A DNA stretch of 64,000 nt. Source: an uncultured Winogradskyella sp. (GTDB lineage Bacteria; Bacteroidota; Bacteroidia; Flavobacteriales; Flavobacteriaceae). The stretch is taken from positions 119,596 to 183,595 of the forward strand of contig NZ_CANMCZ010000001.1 in NCBI RefSeq assembly GCF_947496485.1, written 5' to 3'. The translations under genes and the position numbers were made by a program. Shown piece after piece: positions 17,805 through 51,713 of this stretch (the first letter of the stretch is position 1; each line of letters starts with the position of its first letter). The notes below the pieces were generated by a model. The model ran no database searches and was not told where the DNA came from. It worked only from the letters and a program-made list of their open reading frames with translations.

Positions 17805-17822
17805 TTAAACTGCACTTATTAA

Positions 17823-17862: not shown

Positions 17863-17898
17863 ATTATTAAATAATTTTAAAAAGAGAGGGACATAATT

Positions 17899-18384: not shown

Positions 18385-18385
18385 C

Positions 18386-18634: not shown

Positions 18635-19137
18635 CACTAGGAGGTGGCTGTCATTGGTGTACTGAGGCTGTATTTCAATCTTTGAAAGGTGTTGAACAAG
18701 TAGAGCAAGGTTACGTATCTTCAACAAATGAAAACAGTTCATTTTCTGAAGCTGTAATTGTTCACTTTAATCCTGAAATTATATCGCTTCAAACTTTGAT
18801 TGAAATTCACTTATATACACACAAAAGTAACTCAGCACACTCGATGAGAGATAAATATCGTTCAGCGATTTATATCTTTTCAGAAGAACAAGCACAGGAA
18901 GTAAAAAATACATTAAACGAATTTCAAGCTGAATTTGATAATCAACTTATTACTAATGTATATCCATTTTCAGAATTTAAAGCCTCACGAGAAGCGATTC
19001 AAAATTATTATCTAAAAAATCCTAAAAAGCCTTTTTGTGAACGCTTTATAAACCCTAAATTGAAGCTAATACTAGATAAATTCTCAGACCAAATCAATAA
19101 AAACTTTATATCAAACAATTTAAAATTAAAACAATGA
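18613..19137 (+). CDS. Divergent MsrA-like protein (second copy)
   Basis: A 174-residue MsrA-fold protein. GGGCHWCTEAVFQ replaces the canonical GCFWC Phe with His. The segment that in true MsrA reads DPT..NRQG.D.G.QYRS is shortened to KSNSAHSMRDKYRS. The catalytic Cys and a C-terminal Cys (KPFCERF) remain. The Phe lines the methyl pocket in MsrA, so substrate preference may differ. It overlaps the glutaredoxin gene by 22 bp and the next gene by 4 bp (ATGA). Confidence 0.85.
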   Translation: MARQTKIALGGGCHWCTEAVFQSLKGVEQVEQGYVSSTNENSSFSEAVIVHFNPEIISLQTLIEIHLYTHKSNSAHSMRDKYRSAIYIFSEEQAQEVKNTLNEFQAEFDNQLITNVYPFSEFKASREAIQNYYLKNPKKPFCERFINPKLKLILDKFSDQINKNFISNNLKLKQ

Positions 19138-19412: not shown

Positions 19413-20369
19413 ATGAATCAAACAAAAATTGGATTAGGTATGGCCGCTTTGGGCAGACCAGATTATATCAATATTAGATCAAACACAAATATTGATAAGT
19501 CTGTTGAGGTATTTAAAGCAATTGCTTTTAAGGTTTTAGATGAAAGTTATACGCTTGGTATTAAAGATTTTGATGTAGCACCATCATATGGTTTAGGTGA
19601 ACAATTTTTATTAGAATGGAATAACTCAAGAAATCACAAAGATGTTAATCTCTCAACAAAATTCGGTTATACTTATGTTGCCAATTGGGAAATTGGATTT
19701 TCTGGCAAACACGAAATTAAAGAACATTCCATCTCAAAATTGAATAAGCAATGGGAAGTATCAAAAGCCATGCTTCCTAATCTAAAAATCTATCAAGTAC
19801 ACTCTGCAACACTAGACAGTGGTGTTTTAACCAATGAAGCTGTCTTGTCTAAGCTATACGAATTAAAGCAAGAGCATAATTTAAAAATTGGAATTACGTC
19901 TAGCGGAACTGAACAAGTTAAAATTATTGAAGTAGCACAAAAAATTAATTTTGATGGCGATGATTTATTTGATAGCTATCAAGTAACTTTTAATATTTTT
20001 GAACAGTCATGTTTTCATATCTTGAGAGAATTATTAGCAAAAGGTAAAACTATCATTATCAAAGAAGCTTTAGCTAATGGTCGCGTATTTAAAAATGATA
20101 AATTTTTTCAATACGAATCCGCTTATGACTATTTAGGGCACCTTTCAAGTAAATACTCTGTTGGAACAGATGCTATTGCTTTGCGTTTTATAATTGACCA
20201 CTTAGAACCTAGCGTTATTTTAAGTGGCGCCTCAAACAGCAATCAACTTAAAGAGAATCTAAAAGCTTTAAATTTTGAATTAGATAAAAACGAAGTCTCT
20301 AAACTAAAATTATTTGCAGTAACTCCTCACAATTATTGGAAAGAGCGTAGTCATCTGAAATGGAATTAA
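19413..20369 (+). CDS. Aldo/keto reductase family oxidoreductase
   Basis: A 318-residue TIM-barrel reductase. The catalytic tetrad can be placed as Asp and Tyr in FDVAPSYGLGE, Lys in LSTKFGY and His in YQVHSAT. The NADPH-binding end is recognisable in LSGASNSNQLKENL. Substrate unknown. Last gene of the redox operon, its ATG directly after the previous TAG. It converges on the TolC-like gene with a 4-bp overlap of stop codons, and no terminator is visible there. Confidence 0.88.
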   Translation: MNQTKIGLGMAALGRPDYINIRSNTNIDKSVEVFKAIAFKVLDESYTLGIKDFDVAPSYGLGEQFLLEWNNSRNHKDVNLSTKFGYTYVANWEIGFSGKHEIKEHSISKLNKQWEVSKAMLPNLKIYQVHSATLDSGVLTNEAVLSKLYELKQEHNLKIGITSSGTEQVKIIEVAQKINFDGDDLFDSYQVTFNIFEQSCFHILRELLAKGKTIIIKEALANGRVFKNDKFFQYESAYDYLGHLSSKYSVGTDAIALRFIIDHLEPSVILSGASNSNQLKENLKALNFELDKNEVSKLKLFAVTPHNYWKERSHLKWN

Positions 20370-21790
20370 TCAACTGTAGTACCTCTATAATAATCTAAAA
20401 TTTTTACGCGCAACAAATATTCATACTTGGCATTTGCTAAATTAACCCTTGCGTTATCCAAATTGTTTTTACTAGAGATATAATTCAAGAAATTTGAAAC
20501 CCCATTTTTAAACCTTATGTCATTAATACGATAAGATTCTTCATATGCCTCTACTTGTTTTAATAGGCTTTGGTGTCGCTTATAAGCCGCTTCCATATCA
20601 AAATGAACTTGAGCAATAACATTTTTAATGTCTAAATGTGTTCGCTCTAAGTCTAAAATAGATTCCTTAACTCTAATTTTTTCTAAGGCTACATTATTTT
20701 TAGCCCTAAATCCATTAAAAAGTGGAACATTAACCGCTACTCCAATAACAGTATTTAAATTATTATCCAATTGATCTTCGTAACCAATTCCATTTGAAGC
20801 GAATGACGTCTGCTCTGTCATCACGGGTAAATCTTGGCCATTAACTGTCACAAAATCGCTAGTTTCAACAATACTCGTACCTGTTGACGTAAATATTTCT
20901 GCTGCACTGGAATAATTGCTATTTACTCCACCAAACACAGATATTTCTGGAGTAAACTGAGATTTAGCAACACTGACTCCCTTCTTCGCAGCTTCTACAC
21001 GCAATTCTCTGGCTTTAAATGTTGCTAAATTTTGTAATGCTTGCAAGTAAACCTCATCAGCAGATAAATTGTAGACTTCAAAATCTAGAATAAGATTCTT
21101 AGTGTCTATACCACCACCTTCTTCTAAATTTAATAGTCTCATTAAACTTAATTTTGCATTGTTCAAACTGCTTTCTGAAACCAAAATACTTGTTTCATCA
21201 TTTGCAACTTGTCCTAATATATCAGCATAATCAGCTGGGTTTCCGGATTCATTTTCATAAAATCCTTTTTGTATATTAAGCTGTTTTCTAGTAGCTTCTA
21301 GTCGTGCTTTAGTTAATTCTAAAACATCTCTTGCATTTAGAACTTGAAGATATGCTAATGTTACATTCAGTACTAAGTCTTGTTTAGCAGCTTCAATTTC
21401 GAGATCTGAAGCCTTTTTGTTTAAACGATTCTGCTTAGCTGTATTCAATAATCGAAATCCATTAAAAATAGTAGCGTCTATACTTAGGCCTAAATTAGAA
21501 AATGTTAACTCTTGATTTATAAAATCGTTAGTAAAAGGATCAATACTTCTACCATCATTAACGCCCAAATTAAAATTACCATTAATACTGGGTAACAAGT
21601 TTGCTTTAGATTGCTGGTAATTGACTTTAGCAGAATTAGCTAGTAAATTTGTTGATTTTAAATCGAGATTATTTTGTAATGCTATGGAAATACATTCTTC
21701 TAAGGAATAACGTTTCTCAGATTGATCTTGAGCATATCCAGTTAGACTCATCATAAAAATTATGATGTATATAAGTTGTTTCTGTATCAT
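20366..21790 (-). CDS. TolC-family outer-membrane efflux channel
   Basis: A 474-residue protein with a signal peptide (IIIFMMSLTGYAQ) and the two repeated OEP halves rich in long helices, for example ALQNNLDLKSTNLLANSAK and ARVNLANAKYEYLLRVKILD. It should form the trimeric channel that pairs with the HlyD-type adaptor at 46161-47411. Last gene of the ABC export locus, 10 bp after ATPase B. It is the only TolC-like gene in the window, so it may be shared by all nine permeases. Confidence 0.92.
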   Translation of the reverse strand: MIQKQLIYIIIFMMSLTGYAQDQSEKRYSLEECISIALQNNLDLKSTNLLANSAKVNYQQSKANLLPSINGNFNLGVNDGRSIDPFTNDFINQELTFSNLGLSIDATIFNGFRLLNTAKQNRLNKKASDLEIEAAKQDLVLNVTLAYLQVLNARDVLELTKARLEATRKQLNIQKGFYENESGNPADYADILGQVANDETSILVSESSLNNAKLSLMRLLNLEEGGGIDTKNLILDFEVYNLSADEVYLQALQNLATFKARELRVEAAKKGVSVAKSQFTPEISVFGGVNSNYSSAAEIFTSTGTSIVETSDFVTVNGQDLPVMTEQTSFASNGIGYEDQLDNNLNTVIGVAVNVPLFNGFRAKNNVALEKIRVKESILDLERTHLDIKNVIAQVHFDMEAAYKRHQSLLKQVEAYEESYRINDIRFKNGVSNFLNYISSKNNLDNARVNLANAKYEYLLRVKILDYYRGTTVD

Positions 21791-21800
21791 GATTATTTTG

Positions 21801-22478
21801 TTATTCTGAGACTATTTTACCATCTAGTAAATTAATAATTCGTGACCCATAAGCTGCATTACTTTCTGAGTGCGTAGCCTGGATTATGGTAACGCCACCT
21901 TTGTTTAATTCAGCAAACAACTCCATTATCTCTTCACCTTGTTTAGAATTTAAATTCCCTGTTGGTTCGTCAGCCAAGATCAATTTTGGTTTTCCTATTA
22001 AGGCTCTAGCAATACCAACCAACTGTTGTTGACCACCACTTAATTGAACAGGAAACAAATTCTTTTTACCAACAATATTAAATCGATCTAGCATATCTGC
22101 TACCAATGCTTTCCGTTCAGAGGATTTTACACTTTTGTAAAGCAATGGAGTTTCAATATTTTCCCAAACCGTTAATTCATCAATAAGATGATAGGCCTGA
22201 AATACAAAGCCGATATACTCTTTATAGAGTTTAGATCTACTCCTCTCCTTCATACTATGGACGGGTTCACCTAAAAAAGTATAACCACCTCCTGTAAAAC
22301 TATCTAGCATTCCTATACAATTTAGTAAAGTTGATTTCCCTGAACCAGATGGTCCCATTAATGAAATAAACTCTCCTTCCTTAACTTGTAGATTAATATT
22401 ATCTAACAAAGTAACTTTATTACTTCCAGAATTTACTGTTCTTGTTGCTTCATTTAAACTTAATAATGTATTTCCCAT
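21801..22478 (-). CDS. ABC transporter ATPase of the MacB/LolD type (ATPase B)
   Basis: A 225-residue stand-alone nucleotide-binding domain. Walker A GPSGSGKST, Q-loop FVFQAYHLIDELTV, signature LSGGQQQLVGIARA, Walker B LILADEPTGN and H-loop ATHSES are complete. Two positions differ from ATPase A and most LolD-type proteins: the residue after LSGGQQQ is Leu instead of Arg, and the D-loop reads NLNS instead of NLDS. It may have slower or asymmetric ATPase activity; that is inference. It energises the permeases encoded upstream. Confidence 0.93.
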   Translation of the reverse strand: MGNTLLSLNEATRTVNSGSNKVTLLDNINLQVKEGEFISLMGPSGSGKSTLLNCIGMLDSFTGGGYTFLGEPVHSMKERSRSKLYKEYIGFVFQAYHLIDELTVWENIETPLLYKSVKSSERKALVADMLDRFNIVGKKNLFPVQLSGGQQQLVGIARALIGKPKLILADEPTGNLNSKQGEEIMELFAELNKGGVTIIQATHSESNAAYGSRIINLLDGKIVSE

Positions 22479-22490
22479 TTTTGGTTGTTT

Positions 22491-23234
22491 TTAGTCTATA
22501 TGGTTAATTTGTGAATCCCCAAAACTCAATCCTCTGTTTACTTCTGCTTTACCCTTATAATATAGTTTAGCCTCACCATAAGCAGTGAATTTTATACTTT
22601 CTGAAGCCTGTATTCTAAATTCTGCTTCGCCATAAGCTTTAAGTTTAGACATTTTATTATCAACCTCAACTAAGTTAATTTCACCTTCACCATAAGCAGT
22701 TATATACTGATTTACAGTAGATCCTCCATTTATAGTTAACTGACTTTCACCATAAACATCAACATCAAATTCTACTATGTTAACCTCACTGAATGTAACT
22801 TGAGATTCACCATAAATTTTAAGTTTAAAATTTTCTACTTCAATTAAACTCTCACAAACTGTTATTTGCTCACCTCTTAAAGAAAGGTTATCTATGTTTT
22901 TATAAGTCACTCGAATAGTTAACACTTTGCCTTTGTAAATAGGCACTTTCATCTTGACTCCATTTTTTAAAACCTTTTTGTGTTTAGTTGTTTCTTTGGC
23001 ATCATCCAAATACACTCTAAGGGTATTTCCGTTAACTTGAATATTAATTTTGTCTTCTGGTTCTGTACTATCTAAAATAGTAACGGAATTTTCATCTCCT
23101 TTTACAAAAGTGGTTTCAATATGCGGACTAATAATTACTTTATTAAAATCGCCTACTGTCTGCTTTGTTTGAGCAAGCGTTATTTGTACTAATAATACAA
23201 ATTTAATTACGACTATAAGTTTGAAATTTTTCAT
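22491..23234 (-). CDS. GIN-domain (DUF2807-type) exported protein
   Basis: A 247-residue protein with a signal peptide (VVIKFVLLVQITLAQ). The second half is a right-handed beta-solenoid-like array in which the motif YGE recurs five times (IYGESQ, VYGESQ, AYGEGE, AYGEAE, AYGEAK), spaced about 20 residues. Such GIN domains are widespread in Bacteroidota; their function is unknown. It sits between permease B2 and ATPase B and should be in the periplasm or on the surface. It could bind or fold the exported substrate, which is a guess. Confidence 0.85.
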   Translation of the reverse strand: MKNFKLIVVIKFVLLVQITLAQTKQTVGDFNKVIISPHIETTFVKGDENSVTILDSTEPEDKINIQVNGNTLRVYLDDAKETTKHKKVLKNGVKMKVPIYKGKVLTIRVTYKNIDNLSLRGEQITVCESLIEVENFKLKIYGESQVTFSEVNIVEFDVDVYGESQLTINGGSTVNQYITAYGEGEINLVEVDNKMSKLKAYGEAEFRIQASESIKFTAYGEAKLYYKGKAEVNRGLSFGDSQINHID

Positions 23235-23278
23235 GGTTTATATTAATTTTTGATTAATGATGATTCTTTTTTGATTTA

Positions 23279-25663
23279 TTACTCGGTTCTTAAACTCTTT
23301 ATTGGATTTGCAATAGCGGCTTTGATAGCCTGGTATCCTACGGTTACAAATGTTATTAATAATGCTAATACACCAGCTATCACAAATACTGTCCAGCTAA
23401 TGTTTATTCGATATGCAAAATCTTGTAACCAGTTATTCATAAAGTATAATGCTAAAGGAAAACTTATCACTAATGAAATCAGCACAAGTTTCATAAAATC
23501 TACTGATAATAATTGAACAATTTTAGAAACACTTGCTCCAAATACTTTTCGTATTCCTATTTCTTTATTTCGTTGCTCAGCCATAAATGCTGCTAAACCA
23601 AATAAACCAAGACAAGCCACTATAATTGCTAATATTGAAAACAATAAACCTACATTGGCTGTACGCTTTTCTTTTTCGTAAAGCAACTCTAGTTTTTTAT
23701 CTAAAAAGGTATACTCAAAAGCAGAATTAGGAGCAACATTTTTGAATGCGTTTTCAAAATTTAAAATAGTCTCTGTTAATACTTCATTTGAAAAACGAAC
23801 CAACAGATATGATTTTGGTTCACGAGGTGCATTATGAAAAGCATATCCACCAATTGGACTATGTAATGAAGCAAAATTGAAATTATCAACAACACCATGT
23901 ATATAAGCATTATCGCCAAGCTGCATATTCACTTTTTTACCAATGGCTTCCTCTGGTGTTAGCCCTAAGAAATCTACCGTTTTTTTATTTACAACAACTT
24001 CCACCAAAGTGTCACCTTGTTGCTTGTTCTTTGGTAGTAATTGACCAGCCAAAAGGTTTAGCTGTAATACATCGGAGACTTTATATTCTGAACGGTTGGT
24101 TTGAATACCCATACTCTCCTCGCTATTTGGTTTTTGTATACTTCTGCCACTAACTCCCATACCTGGATAACCTTGTGAACGGGCTACAAAAGAGACATTT
24201 GGCAATTTTTCAAAAGCATCTACTAAAGCTTTATTGGCTTGTCCACCACGTATTCCTGCAGTTGAAATAGCGATAACATTCTCTGGATTATAACCTAGAT
24301 TCTTATTTTGAATATATTCTAACTGCTGATGAATAACAATAACGCTAATGATTAAAACTACTGATGCAGAAAACTGAACGACTACTAATCCTTTTCTTAT
24401 AAAACTGGTCATTCCTCCTCTTCGCGAGGATGGTTTTAGAGCTTCTTTAGGAGAAAAACGGGAAAGATATAATGCAGGGTAAGAACCAGAAATAAAAGTT
24501 GTTACTAGCCAAATCAGTAATAAGAAGCCTAAAATTTTAACCGAAAATAATGCTGAAATATCTAATTGTTTTCCAGCAACTTCGTTAAAAACTGGCAAGG
24601 CTACGATGGTGAAAAGACCACCTAAAATCATTGCAATTGCAGTTATTAGTCCAGTTTCAATATAAAATCTAAATACTACATTTTTTACAGATGCACCAAG
24701 CGTTTTATTTATACCTACGTCAGTAGCGCGTTTTTGAGAGCGTGCGGTAATTAAATTCATGTAATTAATGCAAGCAATAATCAAGATTAAAATAGCGAGA
24801 GCAGTAAGATTTTGAATTTGATTAATATCACCATAATTATCAATATAACTATCAGAATATGCAGAAGAGTATAAGTGAATGTCTCTTAAAGATTGTAATG
24901 AAAAGTTATACCATTGCTCGTCTTTTTTAACATTGACATCTAAAATTCCTTGGATTTTACGCTCTGAAGTTGAAACACTTGGTGTGTCTGAATTAAAAAC
25001 TACAAAAGTTTCAAAACTTGCATTATTCCAAGTTGGATTTTTAGCTGCATTTTGCATCATAAAAGGTGCAACCACATTAAAATTTATAGAACTATTATCA
25101 GCAAAATCTTTATAAACACCCTTAACTTCGAACGTATTTACATTGTCAACTGTCAGTGTTTTTCCTAAAGGATTTTTGTTCCCAAAATAACGTTTGGCTG
25201 TACTTTCTGAAAGTAGAATATTGTTAGGGCTTTTTAGGTTTTCTGCACCAGAACCATTTATAATTTCAACATCAAACATTTCTAAAATTGAAGGGTCAAC
25301 CCAAAACAATTTATCTTCTGCAAACACATCGTTCTCGGATTTTATAAATGCGGTTCCTCCAAAATCATGTCTCAAAAACCGGCCGGATTCTGAGATTTCC
25401 GGAATCTTATCTTTAAGCTCAGGACCTAATGCCGATGGTACATTAGACCAAGTTTCTAAATCATCTTCAGTTGTATTAAGTAAAACTCTGTAAATTCTGT
25501 CCTTTTGTGTATACATAGTATCAAAACTACGCTCATGTAAAACAAATAAGAACAATACTAAAGTCGTAGCAAGACCTATTGACAATCCAACAATATTAAC
25601 AATTGAGAATAAACGATTGGTCTTAAGACTTCTCCATGCAATTTTTATATAACTACGTATCAT
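23279..25663 (-). CDS. MacB/FtsX-type ABC permease B2 (ninth of array)
   Basis: A 794-residue internally duplicated permease. Each half has one helix, a large periplasmic MacB-type domain and three helices. TM1 is about 20-42, periplasmic domain 1 about 50-280, TMs to about 425, the second half from about 440. The ATPase-contacting segment of the second half is KEIGIRKVFGAS; that of the first half is TDVGINKTLGAS, with Asn for the usual Arg. The C-terminus is ANPIKSLRTE. No ATPase domain is fused. It lies 11 bp after permease B1 and is followed by the GIN-domain gene. Confidence 0.92.
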   Translation of the reverse strand: MIRSYIKIAWRSLKTNRLFSIVNIVGLSIGLATTLVLFLFVLHERSFDTMYTQKDRIYRVLLNTTEDDLETWSNVPSALGPELKDKIPEISESGRFLRHDFGGTAFIKSENDVFAEDKLFWVDPSILEMFDVEIINGSGAENLKSPNNILLSESTAKRYFGNKNPLGKTLTVDNVNTFEVKGVYKDFADNSSINFNVVAPFMMQNAAKNPTWNNASFETFVVFNSDTPSVSTSERKIQGILDVNVKKDEQWYNFSLQSLRDIHLYSSAYSDSYIDNYGDINQIQNLTALAILILIIACINYMNLITARSQKRATDVGINKTLGASVKNVVFRFYIETGLITAIAMILGGLFTIVALPVFNEVAGKQLDISALFSVKILGFLLLIWLVTTFISGSYPALYLSRFSPKEALKPSSRRGGMTSFIRKGLVVVQFSASVVLIISVIVIHQQLEYIQNKNLGYNPENVIAISTAGIRGGQANKALVDAFEKLPNVSFVARSQGYPGMGVSGRSIQKPNSEESMGIQTNRSEYKVSDVLQLNLLAGQLLPKNKQQGDTLVEVVVNKKTVDFLGLTPEEAIGKKVNMQLGDNAYIHGVVDNFNFASLHSPIGGYAFHNAPREPKSYLLVRFSNEVLTETILNFENAFKNVAPNSAFEYTFLDKKLELLYEKEKRTANVGLLFSILAIIVACLGLFGLAAFMAEQRNKEIGIRKVFGASVSKIVQLLSVDFMKLVLISLVISFPLALYFMNNWLQDFAYRINISWTVFVIAGVLALLITFVTVGYQAIKAAIANPIKSLRTE

Positions 25664-25674
25664 AACAAATGGAT

Positions 25675-28029
25675 TTATTCGGTTTTTAAACTATCTACTG
25701 GATTTGCAACGGCCGCCTTTACAGCTTGGAAACTTACCGTAGCTAAAGCGATTAAGATGGCAAGTAAACCTGCTATTGCAAAAATCCACCAATTGATTTC
25801 TATACGATAAGCATAATCCTGAAGCCAGTTATACGTAGCATACCAAGCTATAGGAACCGAAATTAAAATTGAAACACCTACAAGCTTTAAGAAGTCTTTT
25901 GACAATAATTTCACTATTCCAGAAACGCTAGCTCCCAAAACTTTACGAACACCTATTTCTTTGCTTCGCTGCTCTGCAGTATAAGCTGCCAAGCCAAATA
26001 ATCCTAAACATGAAATTAGTATTGCAAGAATGGCAAATATTTGAGAAAGTTCACCAACTAGCTGTTCGTTTTTAAACTTTGCATTAAAAGCATCATCTAC
26101 AAATGTATATTCAAAAGGAAAGGCTGGATTATGTTTTTTTAGTACCGTTTCAATATCAGAAAGTGCTTTATCAACAGGCACTCCATCTTTTGTTTTTATA
26201 AACATGTATCTCGCATAATAAGGAAAATGCATAAACAATACTGGGTCACTAGCATCAAACATATCACCATAAACGTAATCTTTTACGACACCTATAATCT
26301 CCATATTATCTTCATCGCGACTGATTAAATTACCTACTGGATTCTCATCACCCATCATTTTAGCCAAGGATTCTGAAACCAAAGCATAAGAACTATCGGC
26401 TTCAAAATTATTGCTAAATCCTCGACCTTCAATAATTTCCATTCCTGTAGTATCAAAAAAGCTTTGAGTTACGTTTCTGAAAGAAATCAAAACATCTTCT
26501 GTATCCGTTCCTCCCTTCCAGCTAAAACCAGAACCATTGTTGCCACCAGATAAAATTTCAGAATTACATAATGTTGCATTGTGCACTGAACCAGTTCTTA
26601 TTAGTTCTTGTTGAATTAAATCAAACTTTGGTATAAAATCATGATCAATTCGCATAGAGAGCAACTGGTCTTTATCATAACCTAATTCTCTATTTTTTGC
26701 ATGTTGGATTTGTTGATATACTAATATTGTAAAAATTATGAATACGATGGAAATGGTGAACTGACCTATGACCAATCCTTTTCTAATAAATGAAGCCGAA
26801 CCTTGCGTAACTTTCAATCCTTTTAAGACTTCAACAGGCTTAAAAGATGACAGATAAAACGCTGGGTATAAACCAGCAAAAATGCCTGAGATAATAGATA
26901 TACTTACTAATACAAGAATATGTATTGGATTTGCTAATCCTAAAACTAAATCTTTTTCTATGATAAGATTGAATTGAGGCAATAAAACAGCAAGCAATAA
27001 AACGCTCAGAGCTGTAGCAATAAATGACAATACTAGCGCCTCAGAAATGAACTGCGTAATTAATCTTGAGCGACTAGAACCCATTGCCTTGCGAACACCA
27101 ACTTCGTTTGCTCGCTTTTCACTTCGAGCAGTAGATAAATTCATGAAGTTAATACATGCAATCAACAAAATTATAAAGGCTATTATGGTAAATAAACGAA
27201 CATAAGTAATTCTCCCCCCAACTACTTTACCATTTTCAAATTTTGAACGCAAGTGCCAATCTTTAATAGAATGTAAAAAGGCATAATCGTCTGTAAATTC
27301 AGCTTTCTTTCCTATAAGTTCTCTAACTTGCGCATCAACGGTTTCAAAATTTGCTTCTGGCGACAACTCTACAAAAGTGTCTGAAAAATTACTTCCGTAT
27401 TCTGTCATCCATTCGGCTCCATCTCTATATCGCTCAAAAGGTGCTACCCAATCAAAAGGAAATGATACATTTTTAGGTAAATTTTCAATAACACCTGTTA
27501 CTAAATAATTGTCTTTATTGCTTACTCTAACAACATTCCCAAGTGCTTTTTCTCCCTTACCGAAAAGTTGCTCTGCGATTTCTTGAGTTAATACAATAGC
27601 CTCAGGATTTTCAAATGCTTCTTCACGATTACCTTCAATAAATTTTAGAGTGAAAATATCTAAAAAGTCCGCATCGGCATAACGGCCTCTCCTATTTATT
27701 GAGTTGTCTCCAACAGTAAATAAACGTTCTTCGAGACTAGACCTTGTGGCTTTTAAAATCCCTGGAATTTCGTTTAACATATCTTGAGCTAACGGTCCTG
27801 GTGTTGAGTAGAATGTTCTCCATTCACCCTCATACTGTTGGTTCGTTGGCACATAATAAACCTGATCTTGTTTAGGAAAAGATTCATTAAAGCTGACCTC
27901 ATCTTCAACCCAAAGAAAGATTAAACTTGCACAAGTAATACCTATAGCTAATCCAAAAATATTTAAAAAACTATAGCCTTTATTTTTCAGTAAACTTCTG
28001 AATGCTATTTTGATATAGTTAAGAATCAT
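25675..28029 (-). CDS. MacB/FtsX-type ABC permease B1 (eighth of array), first gene after the internal promoter
   Basis: A 784-residue duplicated permease, the shortest of the nine. Coupling segments are NEVGVRKAMGSS (first half) and KEIGVRKVLGAS (second half); the end is ANPVDSLKTE. Unlike the others it is preceded by a 154-bp gap that carries an enhancer-like site (28131-28170) and a TGGCAT promoter element (28064-28078). It therefore opens a second transcription unit: B1, B2, GIN protein, ATPase B and TolC. The leader ATCAATCAAAAAACGAACA just before the ATG resembles leaders of several sister genes. Confidence 0.93.
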   Translation of the reverse strand: MILNYIKIAFRSLLKNKGYSFLNIFGLAIGITCASLIFLWVEDEVSFNESFPKQDQVYYVPTNQQYEGEWRTFYSTPGPLAQDMLNEIPGILKATRSSLEERLFTVGDNSINRRGRYADADFLDIFTLKFIEGNREEAFENPEAIVLTQEIAEQLFGKGEKALGNVVRVSNKDNYLVTGVIENLPKNVSFPFDWVAPFERYRDGAEWMTEYGSNFSDTFVELSPEANFETVDAQVRELIGKKAEFTDDYAFLHSIKDWHLRSKFENGKVVGGRITYVRLFTIIAFIILLIACINFMNLSTARSEKRANEVGVRKAMGSSRSRLITQFISEALVLSFIATALSVLLLAVLLPQFNLIIEKDLVLGLANPIHILVLVSISIISGIFAGLYPAFYLSSFKPVEVLKGLKVTQGSASFIRKGLVIGQFTISIVFIIFTILVYQQIQHAKNRELGYDKDQLLSMRIDHDFIPKFDLIQQELIRTGSVHNATLCNSEILSGGNNGSGFSWKGGTDTEDVLISFRNVTQSFFDTTGMEIIEGRGFSNNFEADSSYALVSESLAKMMGDENPVGNLISRDEDNMEIIGVVKDYVYGDMFDASDPVLFMHFPYYARYMFIKTKDGVPVDKALSDIETVLKKHNPAFPFEYTFVDDAFNAKFKNEQLVGELSQIFAILAILISCLGLFGLAAYTAEQRSKEIGVRKVLGASVSGIVKLLSKDFLKLVGVSILISVPIAWYATYNWLQDYAYRIEINWWIFAIAGLLAILIALATVSFQAVKAAVANPVDSLKTE

Positions 28030-28063
28030 AAGTGTTCGTTTTTTGATTGATACTAATTATATA

Positions 28064-28078
28064 GTGAAGATGATGCCA
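28064..28078 (-). promoter_or_regulatory. Sigma-54-like promoter of permease B1
   Basis: Minus-strand TGGCATCATCTTCAC followed by TATATAA. The element is conserved at 47442-47456 and 48854-48868 (consensus TGGCAT-N4-TTnAC-TAT), each with an enhancer-like site exactly 52 bp upstream. TGGCAT fits the -24 box; the -12 part deviates from TTGC. Start of transcription would be about 25 nt before the ATG. Confidence 0.65.
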
Positions 28079-28130
28079 GAAATACAATAACCTGATTTTC
28101 ATTATCTTATAATTAATTTCAAAAACAAAT

Positions 28131-28170
28131 GTGTTCGATTTTGATACACTTCTTGTTCAAAACCGAACAC
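28131..28170 (-). promoter_or_regulatory. Enhancer-like 40-bp inverted repeat upstream of permease B1
   Basis: Ends GTGTTCGATTTTGA and TCAAAACCGAACAC pair at 13 of 14 positions. Each half also reads as GTGT-N11-ACAC/ACAA, as expected for two adjacent dimer sites of an NtrC-type regulator. Same site at 47509-47548 and 48921-48960. Confidence 0.75.
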
Positions 28171-28183
28171 TTAAAATTTTGTT

Positions 28184-30592: not shown

Positions 30593-30619
30593 GATTTCTT
30601 TTATTTTGTTATAATGAAT

Positions 30620-33067: not shown

Positions 33068-33078
33068 GATTAATTGAT

Positions 33079-35511: not shown

Positions 35512-35540
35512 GATTGCTTGTTTTTTGATTGATGATATAA

Positions 35541-37958: not shown

Positions 37959-37985
37959 GAATATTTGTTTTTTGATTGATGATAA

Positions 37986-40406: not shown

Positions 40407-40428
40407 ATTTTCTTTTTAAAATCTTTTT

Positions 40429-42834: not shown

Positions 42835-42894
42835 GATTGTTCGTTTTAACTGTTCGTTTTTTATACTGAAACAAATTCAGCACGAGTTGATGAT

Positions 42895-45330: not shown

Positions 45331-45374
45331 AACTTCTGAGAATTACTGTTAGTTTTTTGATTGATTTGGCTTCT

Positions 45375-45420
45375 ACACTTCAGTATATTTTTATGGTTGA
45401 TTAGTCTTATACTGAAGTGT
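45375..45420. terminator. Perfect 13-bp inverted repeat between ATPase A and permease A1
   Basis: Arms ACACTTCAGTATA (45375-45387) and TATACTGAAGTGT (45408-45420) are exact reverse complements around a 20-nt loop. There is no T-run directly after the stem on the minus strand. It may be a partial terminator, an mRNA processing or stability hairpin, or a protein site. It is the only long gap inside the first unit. Confidence 0.5.
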
Positions 45421-45455
45421 TTTCACCAGGTTGATTGATTTTGATTGATGATTTT

Positions 45456-46133
45456 TTAAGCCAAAATGTTTTCGGTTACTTTTTGTCCATCTAACATTCT
45501 GATAATTCTATGACTATACTTTGCATCGTGCTCACTGTGAGTCACCATTACTATAGTAGTTCCTGCTTCATTAAGATCAATTAATAAATCCATAACTTCA
45601 TTACCATTAGTACTATCTAAGTTTCCTGTTGGCTCATCTGCTAAAATTAACTTTGGATTATTAACTACGGCTCTTGCAACTGCAACTCTTTGTTGTTGAC
45701 CACCAGACAATTGTTGTGGAAAATGATTTCTACGATGCATTATTTGCATTTTCTCCAAAACTTCTTCTACTCTTTTCTTTCTCTCAGCTGGTTTTACACC
45801 TGTATAGATTAAAGGCAACTCTACGTTTTCAAAAACAGTGAGTTCATCAATTAGATTAAAACTCTGAAAAACAAAACCGACATTATGCTTACGTAATTCT
45901 GAACGCTTACGCTCGTTGTAACCAGCAACTTCCTCACCATTAAATTTGAAACTTCCACCATCTGGATCATCCAGTAATCCTATTATATTTAATAACGTGG
46001 ACTTTCCACATCCTGATGGTCCCATTATAGCAACAAACTCACCTTGTTTTACTTCAAAGGATAATTTATTTAATGCGATAGTTTGTACCTCTTCGGTTCT
46101 ATAAAACTTCTCTAAATCAGTAATCTGTATCAT
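45456..46133 (-). CDS. ABC transporter ATPase of the MacB/LolD type (ATPase A)
   Basis: A 225-residue stand-alone nucleotide-binding domain with fully canonical motifs: Walker A GPSGCGKST (about 38-46), Q-loop FVFQSFNLIDELTV, signature LSGGQQQRVAVARA, Walker B LILADEPTGNLDS and H-loop VTHSEHD. It is encoded between the adaptor and the permease array and is probably the main motor for the A1-A7 permeases. Each permease has two coupling helices, so one complex would need two ATPase chains. Confidence 0.95.
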   Translation of the reverse strand: MIQITDLEKFYRTEEVQTIALNKLSFEVKQGEFVAIMGPSGCGKSTLLNIIGLLDDPDGGSFKFNGEEVAGYNERKRSELRKHNVGFVFQSFNLIDELTVFENVELPLIYTGVKPAERKKRVEEVLEKMQIMHRRNHFPQQLSGGQQQRVAVARAVVNNPKLILADEPTGNLDSTNGNEVMDLLIDLNEAGTTIVMVTHSEHDAKYSHRIIRMLDGQKVTENILA

Positions 46134-46160
46134 TGTATTTTATGTTTTATTGATTGACTC

Positions 46161-47411
46161 TTATTTTAATATTAATTCTTCTGTATCTCCGTAGGAATCA
46201 TAACTCGATGTAATGACTTTATCACCTACATTTAATCCTTCTACGACTTCGTAGTATTCTGTGTTTTGACTTCCTAATCTTATATTTACTTTGTAAGCAG
46301 TACTTCCATCTTCACTGACTTTAAAAATCCAGTTACCGCCAGTTTTCTGAAAGAAACCTCCTTTTGGCACTAGCAGTGCTTGCTTCTCTGCACTCAGAGC
46401 AACTCTAATTTGTAAGTTTTGTCCACGACGAATACCTTCTGGCACATCTCCTTCAAACTTCATATCAACTTGAAAACGACCATTAGTTACCTGAGTAAAT
46501 ACTTTCTTAATGACTAAAGTGTAAGTCTTTCCGTTGAGTGAAAAGGTTCCGGTTTGCCCATTATAAATTCTAGAGATGTAATGTTCATCGATATCAACTC
46601 TTACTTTATAACCACTAGTCACATCAACTTGTCCTAATCGTGTACCTTTAGTTATTGACTGACCGATTTCAGCATCAAGCGACGTTAATTGTCCGTCAAT
46701 TGGTGCTCTTACCACTAAATCTCCTACTTTTTTGCGCATTAATTCTAAAGCACTTTGTGTTCTGGCATAAGAGCTTTTAGCTTGGTTAATTTCGAGTTTT
46801 GAAGAGATAGAATCTTCAGATAATACTTGCTCAGACAACTTCATACGTTGTTTTTGATATTCGAAATTATTTTTAGAAGACTCATAATCCATTCTTCCAA
46901 TAGCGCCCTTATCGTACAAACGTTTGTTTAAAGCATAAACACGTTCAGCTTCAATAAGGCTATTCTCTACATCTGTAAATTGATTTTGTCTATTGATTGT
47001 ATTCTGACGCGCTGCATTTTGAGAAATCTGCATTTGTGTCAATAAATTATAAACCGAAGTTTCTTGATTTACTAGACTTAACTCTAAATCTGTATTAGAC
47101 AATCTTAAAATTGGTTCACCTTTTTTCATCATTGCACCATCTTCAACAAATTTTTCTTCTACGCGCCCTCCTTCTAAAGCATCTAAGTAAATCGTAGTTA
47201 TTGGTAATACAATTCCGTTTACTGGAATATTTTCTTGGAATACATCATTAGTAATTGTATTTATTGAAATACGTTCTTTTTCAACATTCAATTTAGAGCC
47301 ACCAGAAGTGTTCATAATTACAAAGGCAATTAAAGCTAAGATTGCTATACCTCCGCCGATTACCAGTAATCGTGATTGTGAAAATTTTTTCTTTTTAATT
47401 GGAACGTCCAT
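46161..47411 (-). CDS. HlyD/MacA-type periplasmic adaptor protein
   Basis: From the ATG at 47411 the product has 416 residues: a short Lys-rich cytoplasmic start (MDVPIKKKKFSQSR), one membrane helix (about 14-33), a lipoyl/barrel-sandwich domain split by a coiled-coil hairpin (about 100-205, rich in Q/N/R heptads), and beta-barrel and membrane-proximal domains (VRAPIDGQLTSLDAEIGQSI). A longer frame from 47480 exists but would begin upstream of the predicted promoter at 47442-47456, so I chose 47411. It should bridge the permeases and the TolC-like channel. It is the first gene of the first export unit. Confidence 0.92.
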   Translation of the reverse strand: MDVPIKKKKFSQSRLLVIGGGIAILALIAFVIMNTSGGSKLNVEKERISINTITNDVFQENIPVNGIVLPITTIYLDALEGGRVEEKFVEDGAMMKKGEPILRLSNTDLELSLVNQETSVYNLLTQMQISQNAARQNTINRQNQFTDVENSLIEAERVYALNKRLYDKGAIGRMDYESSKNNFEYQKQRMKLSEQVLSEDSISSKLEINQAKSSYARTQSALELMRKKVGDLVVRAPIDGQLTSLDAEIGQSITKGTRLGQVDVTSGYKVRVDIDEHYISRIYNGQTGTFSLNGKTYTLVIKKVFTQVTNGRFQVDMKFEGDVPEGIRRGQNLQIRVALSAEKQALLVPKGGFFQKTGGNWIFKVSEDGSTAYKVNIRLGSQNTEYYEVVEGLNVGDKVITSSYDSYGDTEELILK

Positions 47412-47441
47412 TTTTGGTTTTTTAATTATGTTATTTATATA

Positions 47442-47456
47442 GTTAAGATTATGCCA
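47442..47456 (-). promoter_or_regulatory. Sigma-54-like promoter of the adaptor gene
   Basis: Minus-strand TGGCATAATCTTAAC followed by TATATAA. Same element as at 28064 and 48854. It lies about 30 bp before the ATG at 47411 and supports that start. Confidence 0.65.
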
Positions 47457-47508
47457 AACACTTAAATAATTAAAAATCAAATACTTAAAGTTTGTGATAA
47501 AAATAGAA

Positions 47509-47548
47509 GTGTTCGATTTTGATACACTTTTTGTTCATAATCGAACAC
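47509..47548 (-). promoter_or_regulatory. Enhancer-like 40-bp inverted repeat upstream of the adaptor gene
   Basis: Ends GTGTTCGATTTTGA and TCATAATCGAACAC. It is 52 bp upstream of the TGGCAT element and directly abuts the stop codon of the serine hydrolase gene. Confidence 0.75.
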
Positions 47549-48790
47549 CTATTTTTTTAATTTATTTTCAAATTCTAGTATAGATTTCCACACCGCTTTT
47601 ATGTAAGGCACTACTATTTCCTCTTTATAGTCAATATCTGTGTTAATCATTAACAACTTTCCGATTTTAGTTTCGGGATTAAAATATAGCATTGCTAACG
47701 AGCCTAAATCTGAACCATTATGACCAATCAATAAATCTGAAGAACCAATGAAATTATTATTGTACTCAACAAAAATTCCTACATTTATTCTACCGCTTTC
47801 ATTTATATTGTTTTCGAAACGTTTTTCAAAAAACATCTCGTAACTATTTTTTGTTAACAATGTCCCTTTTCCATCATAACCCTTCATCAATTCCGCTAAA
47901 TATTTACTCAAATCTTCACTAGAAGTAAGTAAGCCTCCATTTGGATAGGAAATACATTCGTAATCTGCAATTTTTTGACCTTTAAAAAGGTAAAATTTTG
48001 ACCGTCTTAATGAATCAACTTCTTTAAGTGACCATGCCGAATCCCTCATATTTAATGGGTCGAAAATATGTTTTTTAGTAAATTCCTTAAATGACATACC
48101 TGATGCTTGAGCGATTATCAACGCACACAAATCTGCCCCATAATTTGTATATTCAAATGTTGATCCTGGTTTGTTATCTGAAAATGCTTCTTCAGTATAC
48201 CATTTCCCTTCTTTTGATAATGAAGCTTCTAGAAAATCTATAAAAGAAATTCTTTTATCAGGTTTTTGAAAATGTGTAAAAGGTACCTCATCGTCTTCAA
48301 CTTTCTCATTTTCTAGAATAAATCCTTTTAAATAATTCTCTTCATAATCTACTATTGAAGAAGAATGTGTTGCTAATTGTAAAATGGTAATTGGAATCTC
48401 AGGATGATTGGGATTCACAACTTCAAAAGGTAAATAATTATTGATTGGGTCATTCAAATTTAGTTTACCCAATTCTTGCGCTTTTAATAAAGCAATTCCA
48501 ATGAATGTTTTAGAAACAGATCCTACGTTTTGAATGGTATTGGTTTTATAAAGTTTTTTGTTTTTTGAATCTGCATATCCAAAGCCTTCATTGTAAAGTA
48601 CCTTGTCCTGATCTATTACAGCTACTGAAAAACCGACGAGCTCATCATCACTATTTGCAGCTACAAGACTATGTGTTAAGGAATCTTTGAGTTTTATCTG
48701 GTTATGATCTTGTTTATCATTTTGTCCATTTCCTTGTTTAGATGAAAACAGTGAAGCGATTAAAAGTAAAATTAGTACTGGATTGTTCAT
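47549..48790 (-). CDS. Exported serine hydrolase (class C beta-lactamase / PBP-like)
   Basis: A 413-residue protein with a signal peptide (LILLLIASLFSSKQGNGQ). The SxxK motif is SVSKTF, the YxN motif is in FEYTNYGADL, and the third motif is HNG in GHNGSDLG. These enzymes include D-amino-acid or peptide hydrolases, esterases and beta-lactamases; the substrate cannot be told from sequence. It has the same enhancer and promoter arrangement as the permease units, so it probably belongs to the same regulon and may process the exported or sensed compound (inference). Confidence 0.88.
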   Translation of the reverse strand: MNNPVLILLLIASLFSSKQGNGQNDKQDHNQIKLKDSLTHSLVAANSDDELVGFSVAVIDQDKVLYNEGFGYADSKNKKLYKTNTIQNVGSVSKTFIGIALLKAQELGKLNLNDPINNYLPFEVVNPNHPEIPITILQLATHSSSIVDYEENYLKGFILENEKVEDDEVPFTHFQKPDKRISFIDFLEASLSKEGKWYTEEAFSDNKPGSTFEYTNYGADLCALIIAQASGMSFKEFTKKHIFDPLNMRDSAWSLKEVDSLRRSKFYLFKGQKIADYECISYPNGGLLTSSEDLSKYLAELMKGYDGKGTLLTKNSYEMFFEKRFENNINESGRINVGIFVEYNNNFIGSSDLLIGHNGSDLGSLAMLYFNPETKIGKLLMINTDIDYKEEIVVPYIKAVWKSILEFENKLKK

Positions 48791-48853
48791 TGTATTATTT
48801 TTTTATGTTTTAGAAAGACTAAACCTTTTAGTTCATATCCTACTCATTCAATA

Positions 48854-48868
48854 GTCAATACAATGCCA
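48854..48868 (-). promoter_or_regulatory. Sigma-54-like promoter of the serine hydrolase gene
   Basis: Minus-strand TGGCATTGTATTGAC followed by TAT. The third copy of the element; here the downstream part reads TTGAC. A leader of about 50 nt would precede the ATG at 48790. Confidence 0.6.
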
Positions 48869-48920
48869 TAAAAACAAATAACTGATAATCAGATATTTAA
48901 TATTAAAAACTAAAAATAAA

Positions 48921-48960
48921 GTGTTCGCTTTTAAGACACTCTATGTCCGAAAATGCACAC
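48921..48960. promoter_or_regulatory. Enhancer-like 40-bp site between serine hydrolase and response regulator genes
   Basis: Begins GTGTTCGCTTTTAAGACAC and ends TCCGAAAATGCACAC. It is 52 bp from the TGGCAT element of the hydrolase promoter. It is also 70 bp upstream of the regulator ATG, so it could serve autoregulation in the other direction, but I see no TGGCAT element on the plus strand. Confidence 0.7.
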
Positions 48961-49030
48961 TTTTATATACTGTAAAAATTTTGGTTTTCTAATTTTTATT
49001 AGCTGAATATAATATCGTAATATTGTATTG

Positions 49031-50380
49031 ATGGTATTAAAAAACGCAACGATATTAGTTATTGATGATGATGTTGATGTGCTTACTGCACTTCGACTTC
49101 TATTAAAGCCACTTGTTAAAGATGTTGTTACGGAAAAGAATCCTAGTAATATTACTTCTCAAATTGAAAGCAAAGCGTTCGACATTATCATACTAGACAT
49201 GAATTTCAGTGGTCTAGTAAATACTGGTAATGAAGGTATATTTTGGCTTAATAAAATCCGAAAACAAAAACCAGAGACTTCTGTGATTTTGATGACTGCC
49301 TACGCAGATATTGACTTAGCCATTAGAGGACTTAAAGAAGGAGCTTCGGACTTTTTAGTAAAGCCTTGGAAGAATGAAAAAATAATCAATACAATAACTT
49401 CAATATTAGAATCTAAGAAATCCAATTCTAGTAAGAAAGCCAGTCTAAACTCTAGTAGTATAGAGATTATTGGAGAAAGTGACGTCATGAAAGATGTCTT
49501 TGTAAAGCTTAAAAAAGTAGCACCAACAGATGCCAATGTTTTAGTACTTGGTGAAAATGGTACAGGTAAAGATTTAATTGCGAGAGCGCTACATGATAAT
49601 TCAAATAGACGAGATAAACCATTTGTAAAAGTAGATGTTGGAGCTTTAACAGCTTCGCTTTTTGAAAGTGAATTGTTTGGTTATAAAAAAGGAGCTTTTA
49701 CAGATGCTCGCGAAGATCGCGAAGGCCGATTTGAAGCTGCTAACGGCGGAACTTTATTTCTGGATGAAATAGGGAATATTACACTTGGTCAGCAAGTACG
49801 TCTTTTAACAGCTTTACAAAACAGACAGGTAACCCCTTTAGGCTCTAACCAAGCCATTGATATTGATATTCGGTTAGTTTGTGCTACTAATGTTGACCCA
49901 AAAACGTTAGCAGATGAAAGTAAATTCAGAAAAGATTTAATTTATAGAATTAATACCGTAGATATTATTGTTCCACCTTTAAGAGATCGCGGAACTGATA
50001 TCACAGAACTGTCTAAGCATTTTGTTTCAGTCTATGCTGAAAAATATAATAAGAATGGATTTTCTTTTGATCCTGGATTTATTTCAAAATTAAAAAAGCA
50101 CGATTTTCCTGGTAATGTAAGAGAACTTCAATATGTTTTAGAGCGTGCAGTAATAATGACAGATGGTAACACTTTAAAACCTGAAGATTTAGTCTTCTCT
50201 TCTATTGAGCGTTCAACAAATTCTAGTTCTCAAAGTACTACGATGAATTTAGACGATATTGAAAAAAATGCTATACTCACTGTCCTAGAAAAAAATAAAG
50301 GAAATGTTTCTAAATCTGCAAAAGAACTAGGAATCACCAGAGCTGCCTTATATAGACGATTAGACAAATATGAACTTTAA
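49031..50380 (+). CDS. NtrC-type response regulator (sigma-54 activator)
   Basis: A 449-residue protein from the ATG at 49031; an in-frame TTG three bases earlier is unlikely. The receiver domain has the acidic pocket D12-D14, phosphoacceptor D56, T89 and K111. The AAA+ domain has Walker A GENGTGKD (174-181) and Walker B GGTLFLDEIGN. The sigma-54 contact loop reads GAFTDA (221-226) instead of GAFTGA. A Fis-type HTH (KNKGNVSKSAKELGITRAAL) ends the protein. Its last 11 bases overlap the kinase gene. It is the obvious candidate to bind the three GTGTTCG sites. Confidence 0.95.
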   Translation: MVLKNATILVIDDDVDVLTALRLLLKPLVKDVVTEKNPSNITSQIESKAFDIIILDMNFSGLVNTGNEGIFWLNKIRKQKPETSVILMTAYADIDLAIRGLKEGASDFLVKPWKNEKIINTITSILESKKSNSSKKASLNSSSIEIIGESDVMKDVFVKLKKVAPTDANVLVLGENGTGKDLIARALHDNSNRRDKPFVKVDVGALTASLFESELFGYKKGAFTDAREDREGRFEAANGGTLFLDEIGNITLGQQVRLLTALQNRQVTPLGSNQAIDIDIRLVCATNVDPKTLADESKFRKDLIYRINTVDIIVPPLRDRGTDITELSKHFVSVYAEKYNKNGFSFDPGFISKLKKHDFPGNVRELQYVLERAVIMTDGNTLKPEDLVFSSIERSTNSSSQSTTMNLDDIEKNAILTVLEKNKGNVSKSAKELGITRAALYRRLDKYEL

Positions 50381-51713
50381 AGGCTACATTTTTAGACTCT
50401 TTTTAAGAATATTACTTTTAGTAGCTCTTATACTAACTTTAGGCTATACTATTTATATAAAGCAAAGTGTTTATGTGGCGCTTACAAGCTTAGCACTACT
50501 CTATCTCATCATTAATACTTACAGTTTTGTAAAGCGTCGTTTTGTAGCGATGGATGATTTTTTTGAAGCTGTAAAATATCGTGATTTTTCTAGGTGGTTT
50601 CCAGAAGATAGAGGCCCAAAAGACATTCGATTTTTATATACTGGTTTTAATGAAATTAATAGAACCATAAAGGAAATCAATTCGCAGAACGAGGCACAAT
50701 ACGTCTATCTTCAGAAGATTTTAGAAATGGTAGATATAGGAATTATTGCCTATAATCTAGAAAGTGGTGATGTACTTTGGAGCAATGATTATTTTGGAGA
50801 AACATTGGGTATGCCCTCTTTTAAAAATATTCGATTTGTTGAAAACAGAAAACCAGAGTTATTCAATACCATTTTTGAAACCTACCATAGAGAACCAGAT
50901 TCTATTTCAGTAGCACTTCAAAATGAAAAAATAAAAGTATTGATTTCTGATACTGTTTTTCAAGTTGATGATGATGCTTTTAAATTAATTGTCATTCAGA
51001 ATATAGATGATACTTTAAATAAAAATGAATCTGAAGCCTGGAAGAAATTATTAAGTGTTATGACACACGAAATAATGAATTCTATTGCACCTATTTCGTC
51101 ATTAGCAGATACACTTCAAAGAAATGTACAGCTAAATTTAGATGATCCAAGTGAGCATCAACTTGAGCTTGAAGACTTAAATTCTGGTATAAAAACTATT
51201 AAAAACAGAAGTGAAGGTTTATTGAAATTTGCAAAAACATATCGCAGTTTAAATAAGGTTACGCATTTAAATTTGCAAAGAATAAAAGTTTTAGAGCTTT
51301 TTAAGAACATTCAATTATTAATGGAGCCATCCATTAAAGCTAAAAATATTGCAGTTGATTTCAAAATTTCATCTCCTAAACTAGAACTAGATATAGATAC
51401 ACACCTCATAGAGCAAGTTTTAATAAACCTCATATTAAACGCGGTAGATGCTTGCAAAAATAAAGCGGACGCACAAATAAAAATACAAGCATCACAGTCA
51501 CCAACACGAGATATTATGATTAAGGTTTATGATAATGGCTCTGGTATTCCACAAGATATTTTAGAAAACATTTTTGTGCCATTTTTTACTAGTAAAGCCA
51601 CAGGTAGTGGTATAGGATTAAGCCTTTGTAAACAAATTATGCTACTTCACAAAGGGCGAATTGTAGTCAATAGTATTGAAAATGAAGGCACAGTTTTTAG
51701 CTTGGTTTTTTAA
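50370..51713 (+). CDS. NtrY-like sensor histidine kinase
   Basis: A 447-residue protein with two adjacent membrane helices (about 8-29 and 35-52) and almost no periplasmic loop, which suggests sensing within the membrane or through partner proteins. A HAMP-like linker and a PAS-like domain (about 110-215) follow. The phospho-accepting His is H233 in [11 protein letters not shown]. The ATPase domain has the N-box [17 protein letters not shown] and GSGIGLSL. It pairs with the overlapping NtrC-type regulator. A permease of the array could pass the signal, as in BceS-BceAB systems; that is speculation. Confidence 0.93.

Follow-up and report, generated by a model that had tools for sequence, protein, structure and literature searches.

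In most descriptions of type VII ABC exporters, each pump has one permease. The locus described here raises the question of what nine permeases of this type do beside a single adaptor and a single outer-membrane channel, and how such a set is controlled. It lies at positions 20366-51713 of a 64,000-nucleotide stretch of DNA (the window, whose numbering is used for all coordinates) from an uncultured Winogradskyella sp. with a 4.11-Mb genome that is 99.99% complete, and it encodes nine permeases, two ATPases, an HlyD adaptor, a TolC-family channel, a DUF2807 protein, a serine hydrolase and a response regulator with its kinase. Our answer, held with slightly better than even confidence, is that this array is an inducible envelope-defence exporter in which interchangeable permeases would give many specificities to a MacB-like motor, adaptor and channel. 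That judgement covers the anatomy, co-regulation, mechanism and cargo repertoire jointly; the proposed inducer, envelope damage, lies outside it.

Nine permeases in a conserved frame

An earlier, sequence-only reading had proposed this gene inventory, and it was borne out: the open reading frames (ORFs) lie at the positions given and carry the expected Pfam domains (OEP, ABC_tran in two proteins, DUF2807, HlyD_3, Beta-lactamase, Sigma54_activat with Response_reg and HTH_8, and HATPase_c). The locus thus combines one HlyD, one TolC, ATPases A and B, nine duplicated type VII permeases and its own two-component system. The permeases, of 784, 794, 801, 802, 805, 806, 810, 811 and 815 amino acids, have intact reading frames, and each contains MacB_PCD in one or two stretches, two FtsX stretches and no ATPase domain, so that the domain calls agree with the proposed internal duplication and absence of a fused ATPase in all nine. 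Their mutual identity of 22-40% marks them as old paralogs and not recent tandem copies. Averaged over pairs in 20-residue bins, identity is 58% and 57% at the N- and C-termini and 44-62% at the coupling helices but falls to 11-37% in the periplasmic domains, which matches the contrast between conserved membrane and divergent periplasmic regions noted before. An AlphaFold2 model of permease P2 has eight transmembrane (TM) segments and two coupling helices and matches YbbP best, with further structural matches to MacB and LolCDE chains; hydropathy likewise gives eight TM segments, not ten, in all nine proteins.

Comparison of gene order in related genomes, which the sequence-only reading had suggested, revealed a fixed frame around a variable permease set. 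Among the matches listed, a compact run of full-length duplicated permeases is present in 13 of 31 genus genomes, our own included. The order kinase, regulator, HlyD, ATPase A, permeases, DUF2807, ATPase B, TolC is identical in all 12 arrays that could be read to both ends (our own and 11 relatives; the thirteenth, in genome G008, begins inside the array). Of 80 loci retrieved through the regulator alone, a set that overlaps in part with the genus arrays, 79 have HlyD and ATPase A next to it, and the single exception (L103) is cut off by a contig end. Permeases number 4-12 in the genus arrays and 2-12 overall, with two-permease arrays at L102, L104 and L136. No DUF2807 gene separates the permease from ATPase B or TolC in any of the seven inspected loci where those adjoin. 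Within the frame, ATPase A is the most conserved of four proteins compared, with 88-99% identity to our own (median 96, n = 78), followed by HlyD (71-90%, median 85, n = 79), the regulator (68-91%, median 83, n = 80) and the kinase (51-85%, median 81, n = 80). This conservation fits a single motor constrained by many partners, although ABC ATPases as a class tend to be well conserved.

The permeases themselves were compared as a pool of 282 sequences, made up of 79 from genus arrays and 203 from regulator-found loci after removal of 22 duplicates; another 38 permease ORFs outside 770-900 amino acids in the 80 loci, many of them cut by locus ends, were excluded from family counts. At 50% identity the pool falls into 33 families (30-47 at thresholds of 45-60%). 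In the 12 complete arrays only 6 of 74 permeases are same-family duplicates, compared with 18.9 expected and a minimum of 9 in 5000 shuffles, and four of the six belong to array G016, which has four F0 copies; without it the duplicates number two. Shared families occur in the same order in 108 of 110 comparisons (shuffled mean 0.69, maximum 0.83 in 2000 shuffles). Because same-family duplicates are rare and family order is conserved, the arrays look like ordered, inherited sets of different permeases with gains and losses, mostly not products of recent amplification. The earlier proposal, that one motor, adaptor and exit serve many specificities, is thereby supported as far as the shared chassis goes, by the fixed frame, the near-invariant ATPase A and the mostly one-per-family composition; the specificities themselves enter our proposal as a prediction.

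Duplicated permeases, often several in succession, also occur elsewhere in the phylum, in 16 of 61 sampled genomes including our own (E 1e-60 or better). One genome of the same class, G324, has at least 13 such matches at this threshold on many contigs, with 13 of its 36 candidates scored, which suggests larger permease expansions elsewhere in the phylum. Among the titles and abstracts listed by full-text searches of an open-access library, none describes the array or clustered duplicated permeases as such; a duplicated orphan permease is mentioned in one of the listed papers (PMC11573002).

A repeated, probable operator-promoter unit

The sequence-only reading overlooked an operator-promoter unit that is repeated across the array. 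A 44-bp double palindrome with the consensus AAGTGTnCGnTTnnGAACAAnAAGTGTATCAAAATCGnACACTT occurs at three sites in the window, before the hydrolase, HlyD and P8 genes, each time upstream of a promoter-like core. A search of the 13 arrays with the promoter core recovered 30 units in which the distance from palindrome to promoter is constant (30 of 30) and the alignment gapless; the fixed spacing was not built into the search, because sites were picked by the core. Two search patterns for units were fitted to copies already seen. The core scan of 51 kb in three other stretches of the host genome returned no units. A unit precedes HlyD in 12 of 12 arrays, is present inside the array in 13 of 13, and lies 5' of the P8-family gene in 12 of 13. 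In the array of genome G029, a beta-lactamase-family hydrolase and an S41 peptidase (L063:8149-9408 and 14547-15806) stand among the permeases, each at a unit; the unit at the peptidase precedes the ORF, and the one at the hydrolase overlaps the ORF start as listed.

A profile of these sites, R1, matches between regulator and HlyD in all 79 testable loci, with scores down to 40 bits in Leeuwenhoekiella; positions were checked by script in 78 loci and taken from the match table in L154, and in two loci (L123, L126) a hydrolase-type gene stands between the match and HlyD. Across the family, R1 matches 41 of 249 genomes at E 1e-4 or better and 19 at 1e-10 or better. Under strict filters its matches in the host genome are three, all at the array, and these are sites that R1 itself contains. 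Sequence conservation of this kind supports common regulation of the array genes through the repeated units, and each unit is very probably the predicted activator site and promoter of the array's own regulator.

The sequence-only reading had named the regulatory genes an NtrC/NtrY pair. A kinase and a regulator are indeed present, and the label proved loose: the best models are AtoS and ZraR, both below their cut-offs. The regulator has a sigma54-interaction AAA+ domain and a Fis helix-turn-helix (HTH), the host genome encodes RpoN, and palindromes stand upstream at a fixed promoter distance, as in sigma54 activator regulons. The box TGGCAT, which resembles a -24 element, is invariant in all 30 units. 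Standard sigma54 promoters have the spacing GG-N10-GC. At that spacing the units read AC in 26 cases, TC in three and AA in one, and never GC; among relatives, 77 of 78 sites could be parsed, at least one (L159) at the wrong GGCA, and 62 of the 77 have AC after GG-N10. A different core, TGGCAC-N4-TTGC, stands upstream of HlyD in four of five Leeuwenhoekiella loci and one Christiangramia locus (L143, L145, L147, L148 and L149) and is thus kept over two genera, the fifth Leeuwenhoekiella locus having TTAC. A survey gives the sigma54 promoter as TGGCAC-N5-7-TTGCT or, in a second wording, as TGGCAC and TGC 5-7 bases apart (PMC12316311); the Leeuwenhoekiella-type core is one base shorter than the former and agrees with the latter. 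The same survey calls GAFTGA invariant among sigma54 activators (PMC12316311), whereas 86 of 92 regulators, our own included, have GAFTDA and six have GAFTGA.

Searches for sigma54-like sites at large gave mixed results. The consensus TGGCA-N6-TTGCW with one mismatch was found 8 times in the window, compared with 9.1 expected from shuffles, which is no excess, and a looser core (24 found, 16.4 expected) was discounted since its spacing is one base too long for GG-N10-GC. In the host genome, with one mismatch, TTGGCAC-N5-TTGC occurs 64 times against 19 in a backward control and TTGGCAC-N4-TTGC 50 times against 11; since both exceed their controls, this comparison does not separate the two spacings. 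Predicted sigma54 promoters are enriched before FtsX-type (COG0577) permeases in Bacteroidia (PMC12316311), a statistical enrichment only, and the passages concerned mention neither the operator, the arrays nor the regulator described here. On balance, and with reservations, sigma54 is the likely form of polymerase for the array promoters.

Proposed function and competing explanations

In the proposed exporter the regulator would bind the double palindrome and activate three promoters, serving the hydrolase, HlyD with ATPase A and P1 to P7, and P8 and P9 with the DUF2807 (GIN) protein, ATPase B and TolC; because all three would answer to it, the whole array would be induced together. By analogy with its family, each permease would act as a fused pseudo-dimer whose stalk is closed when two ATPase subunits bind ATP, in MacB-like mechanotransmission, and its divergent periplasmic domains would hand a particular amphipathic molecule from the periplasm or the outer leaflet to the shared HlyD-TolC conduit. 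The permeases would then differ in cargo, and one chassis would carry a range of specificities that species gain and lose. The inducer might perhaps be envelope damage from antimicrobial peptides or lipids. Some arrays contain hydrolases (beta-lactamase family, S41 peptidase, esterase), which hint at peptide- or ester-like targets.

Besides the departures in promoter and activator loop given above, several observations weigh against this proposal. Among the matches listed, 18 of the 31 genus genomes (4 of them less than 90% complete) show only shorter frames or weaker scores, so the array is dispensable. Hydrolase and DUF2807 genes are not constant across arrays, and the L136 locus lacks ATPase B. 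Identities of permeases and regulators correlate unevenly over 11 families (r 0.33-0.91), so co-inheritance is clear for some families (0.91 for P8, 0.84 for P6) and weak for others (0.33 for P1). The R1 profile was built from 30 sites, own and genus ones among them; some of these reappear in the 79 loci, where the hits are not independent. Two weak operator-like matches, with two mismatches, also occur elsewhere in the host genome, as do nine promoter-core matches with two or three mismatches.

The same parts could serve other ends. The permeases might pull lipids or lipopeptides from the inner membrane and present them to periplasmic hydrolases such as the serine hydrolase (SerH) without passage through TolC, as in YbbAP-TesA. 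We regard this as rather improbable, since the array permeases have eight TM segments and not ten, HlyD is present in 79 of 80 loci while hydrolases occur in few arrays, and SerH belongs to PF00144 and not to the GDSL hydrolases; moreover, a separate host trio (L065:8324-12331, in C2 at about 468-472 kb) of an 841-amino-acid permease with about ten hydrophobic segments, a stand-alone ATPase and a divergent GDSL hydrolase fits the YbbAP-TesA description better (PMC12646458), and for this reason we do not identify the array with it. Export of self-made products, one endogenous peptide or lipid per permease as DarBCD does for darobactin, draws on DarD and DarC being the top models for ATPase A and HlyD and DarB the second for P9 and P8. 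All these scores are well below the DarB, DarC and DarD cut-offs, and no enzyme resembling peptide biosynthesis was seen among the neighbouring window proteins scanned, small ORFs and the flanks in relatives lying outside that search; we consider this explanation unlikely. Redundant copies retained through neutral duplication and loss would account for array sizes of 2-12 and for the genus genomes without a listed array. This is very improbable, given that same-family duplicates are rarer than in shuffles, the families are old, their order is conserved and the nine host frames are intact. The conserved order and the scarcity of same-family duplicates led us to reject an integron-like model of random cassettes, and anti-phage defence was set aside because PADLOC matched shared ATPase, AAA+ and kinase domains.

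Hydropathy predicts two TM segments in the kinase, joined by only about 5-10 residues, so that it has no periplasmic sensor domain. BceS and LiaS share this two-TM, short-loop layout. The chief task of the permeases might accordingly be detection on behalf of the kinase, the part that BceAB plays for BceS, and transport would be subsidiary. Such a sensory role could also draw on the DUF2807 neighbour, which matches the solved structure 4opw (E 2.7e-4); one paper uses that structure to illustrate the Toastrack domain, which is linked to envelope-stress systems of the Lia type (PMC11237479). Toastrack is predicted there to be intracellular, whereas the array copy has an N-terminal hydrophobic segment. 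Against it, the TM segments and loop are the least conserved parts of the kinase (0.41-0.65 compared with 0.76-0.97 elsewhere in 81 sequences), which disfavours specific contacts there; the cytoplasmic kinase region could sense instead, and detectors would need no co-regulated HlyD and TolC. We judge a primarily sensory array to be quite improbable.

A bolder form of the exporter proposal concerns the motor. ATPase B has LSGGQQQLV for LSGGQQQRV and a D-loop of GNLN for GNLD in 15 of 15 sequences, and the motifs of ATPase A are canonical in 89-90 of 90. Of 30 places with ABC ATPases in the host genome 20 could be parsed; the D-loop residue is D in 18 and N in two, ATPase B being one of these. 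These substitutions suggest a possible heteromeric A:B motor on two unlike permease halves; L136, with A alone, indicates that ATPase A can stand without B at a locus and weighs against an obligate pairing. Joined to a kinase without a loop that would read permease engagement and switch on all the genes together, by way of an operator private to the array and an unusual promoter dependent on the activator, with A and the D-loop-altered B each on a different permease half, this becomes a speculative and, in our estimate, improbable scheme. Were it true, species would differ in the threats they can expel through their different permease sets.

A stem-loop follows ATPase A whichever permease comes first. 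Winogradskyella and its near relatives conserve this element, and the Aquimarina and Leeuwenhoekiella gaps inspected showed no copy; in the host genome the pattern occurs at one place. In 35 copies (our own and 34 from relatives, 33 distinct), 94.2% of cells are paired and 13 changes fall on both sides, compared with 3.9 in shuffles; the count leans towards structure, because a looser pattern was used to select the copies from a list made by hand. Neither the number of base pairs with changes on both sides (5 of 13, against 2.7, reached by 20 of 500 shuffles) nor that of further pair types (14 against 13) stands out. Perfect arms of at least nine bases occur in 29 of 78 gaps between ATPase A and the permeases, a few of them being other repeats. 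The stem-loop possibly sets the stoichiometry of ATPase to permease.

Should the exporter proposal hold, a chassis that takes up to a dozen permeases would offer a natural swap experiment on what the periplasmic domains read and on the way in which one ATPase can serve many partners. Through the operator-promoter unit the regulon can be located by sequence, and inducers and cargo could be sought in cultured marine flavobacteria; carriers among the relatives include Leeuwenhoekiella blandensis MED217 and Winogradskyella flava. The array is also a concrete case of apparently activator-controlled FtsX-type permeases in Bacteroidota, with a promoter that departs conservedly from the sigma54 consensus.

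Feature coordinates are collected in the table below. For HlyD, an ATG start at 47411 is more likely than the TTG at 47480. Between the array and an alginate-lyase stretch, genes for SelR (MsrB), MsrA, an AhpC/TSA-family protein and a second MsrA-like protein stand in a row at 16810-19137. Further away, a gene at 7913-9799 fuses a shikimate-kinase-type (SKI) domain to 6-phosphogluconate dehydrogenase, and around it (2264-16468) lie three alginate-lyase-2 genes, a heparinase/alginate-lyase-like gene, a chondroitinase B gene and an Nramp-type transporter gene.

Table. Predicted features of the permease array, in window coordinates
Feature	Position	Strand	Remarks
Sensor histidine kinase	50370..51713	+	TM at about 7-25 and 30/36-54, loop about 5-10 residues; H-box HEIMNSIAP
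Response regulator	49031..50380	+	Receiver, sigma54-activator AAA+ and Fis HTH; GAFTDA loop; listed ORF start TTG 49028
Operator 5' of serine hydrolase	48919..48962	-	Double palindrome
Promoter of serine hydrolase	48852..48868	-	-24/-12-like, TGGCATTGTATTGACTA
Serine hydrolase (SerH)	47549..48790	-	Beta-lactamase family PF00144; accessory
Operator 5' of HlyD	47507..47550	-	Double palindrome
Promoter of HlyD	47440..47456	-	-24/-12-like, TGGCATAATCTTAACTA
HlyD/MacA-type adaptor	46161..47411	-	Single N-terminal TM anchor; start MDVP; listed ORF 46161-47480
ATPase A	45456..46133	-	Canonical motifs
Stem-loop	45375..45420	-	Between ATPase A and first permease; 13-bp arms
Permease P1	42895..45330	-	Family F9
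Permease P2	40429..42834	-	Family F0; AlphaFold2 model with 8 TM
Permease P3	37986..40406	-	Family F13; most divergent of the nine
Permease P4	35541..37958	-	Family F2
Permease P5	33079..35511	-	Family F6
Permease P6	30620..33067	-	Family F1
Permease P7	28184..30592	-	Family F22; sole F22 member among the 282 permeases
Internal operator 5' of P8	28129..28172	-	Double palindrome
Promoter of P8	28062..28078	-	-24/-12-like, TGGCATCATCTTCACTA
Permease P8	25675..28029	-	Family F3
Permease P9	23279..25663	-	Family F8
DUF2807 protein	22491..23234	-	GIN/'Toastrack'; N-terminal hydrophobic segment
ATPase B	21801..22478	-	51% identical to ATPase A
TolC-family channel	20366..21790	-	Outer-membrane channel

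Relation to known systems

MacB-type exporters, LolCDE, FtsEX, YbbAP and BceAB have been described, and passages of one review attribute two linking helices to the fused permeases (PMC5985334). With MacAB-TolC the array shares the MacB periplasmic and FtsX folds. In the same cluster stand a candidate MacA-type adaptor of the HlyD family (one TM segment; RND_mfp 131.3 over a cut-off of 94.9, but 31.5 of 342 bits for the MacA equivalog) and its putative partner, a co-located TolC-family channel with an OEP domain (TolC equivalog 67.3 of 495 bits). It differs in that the permease is a fused pseudo-dimer with eight TM segments, the ATPases are separate genes and not fused at the permease N-terminus, and 2-12 permeases accompany each adaptor and channel under a two-component regulator of their own. 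By profile, DarBCD, the transporter of the darobactin cluster (PMC7616364), comes nearest among the named export systems, with DarD scores of 299.2 for ATPase A and 239.6 for B (of 375), a DarC score of 178.6 (of 450) for HlyD, and DarB the second-best model in the two permeases scanned (135.3 for P9 and 136.9 for P8, of 700); the array proteins remain below all three equivalog cut-offs and the permeases are many. Neither a darA precursor nor a darE radical SAM enzyme was present among the neighbouring window proteins scanned, a set without the small ORFs. The ADOP profile (TIGR03434) matches the permeases over its full or near full length, whereas all nine score 164-353 bits, below the cut-off of 622.3, and the array has ATPases, an adaptor and a channel.

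YbbAP-TesA is alike in pairing a separate ATPase with a duplicated type VII permease that has two periplasmic domains, but the array permeases lack the linking TM pair, and HlyD and TolC take the place of a constant GDSL hydrolase. As in BceAB-BceS, an FtsX-type transporter stands beside a kinase with two predicted TM segments, a minimal loop and no periplasmic domain. BceB is described in passages of two papers as having ten TM helices and no first periplasmic domain (PMC12646458; PMC5985334), unlike the array permeases with their eight TM segments and two periplasmic domains, and the array adds an adaptor, a channel and an AAA+ regulator. LolCDE is set apart by its ATPase, both array proteins scoring below the LolD equivalog cut-off of 307.75 (225.1 for A, 184.6 for B). 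The array is probably best regarded as a variant of the tripartite type VII ABC exporters; its parts are ordinary, and what is unusual is their arrangement, which is conserved and probably under joint regulation.

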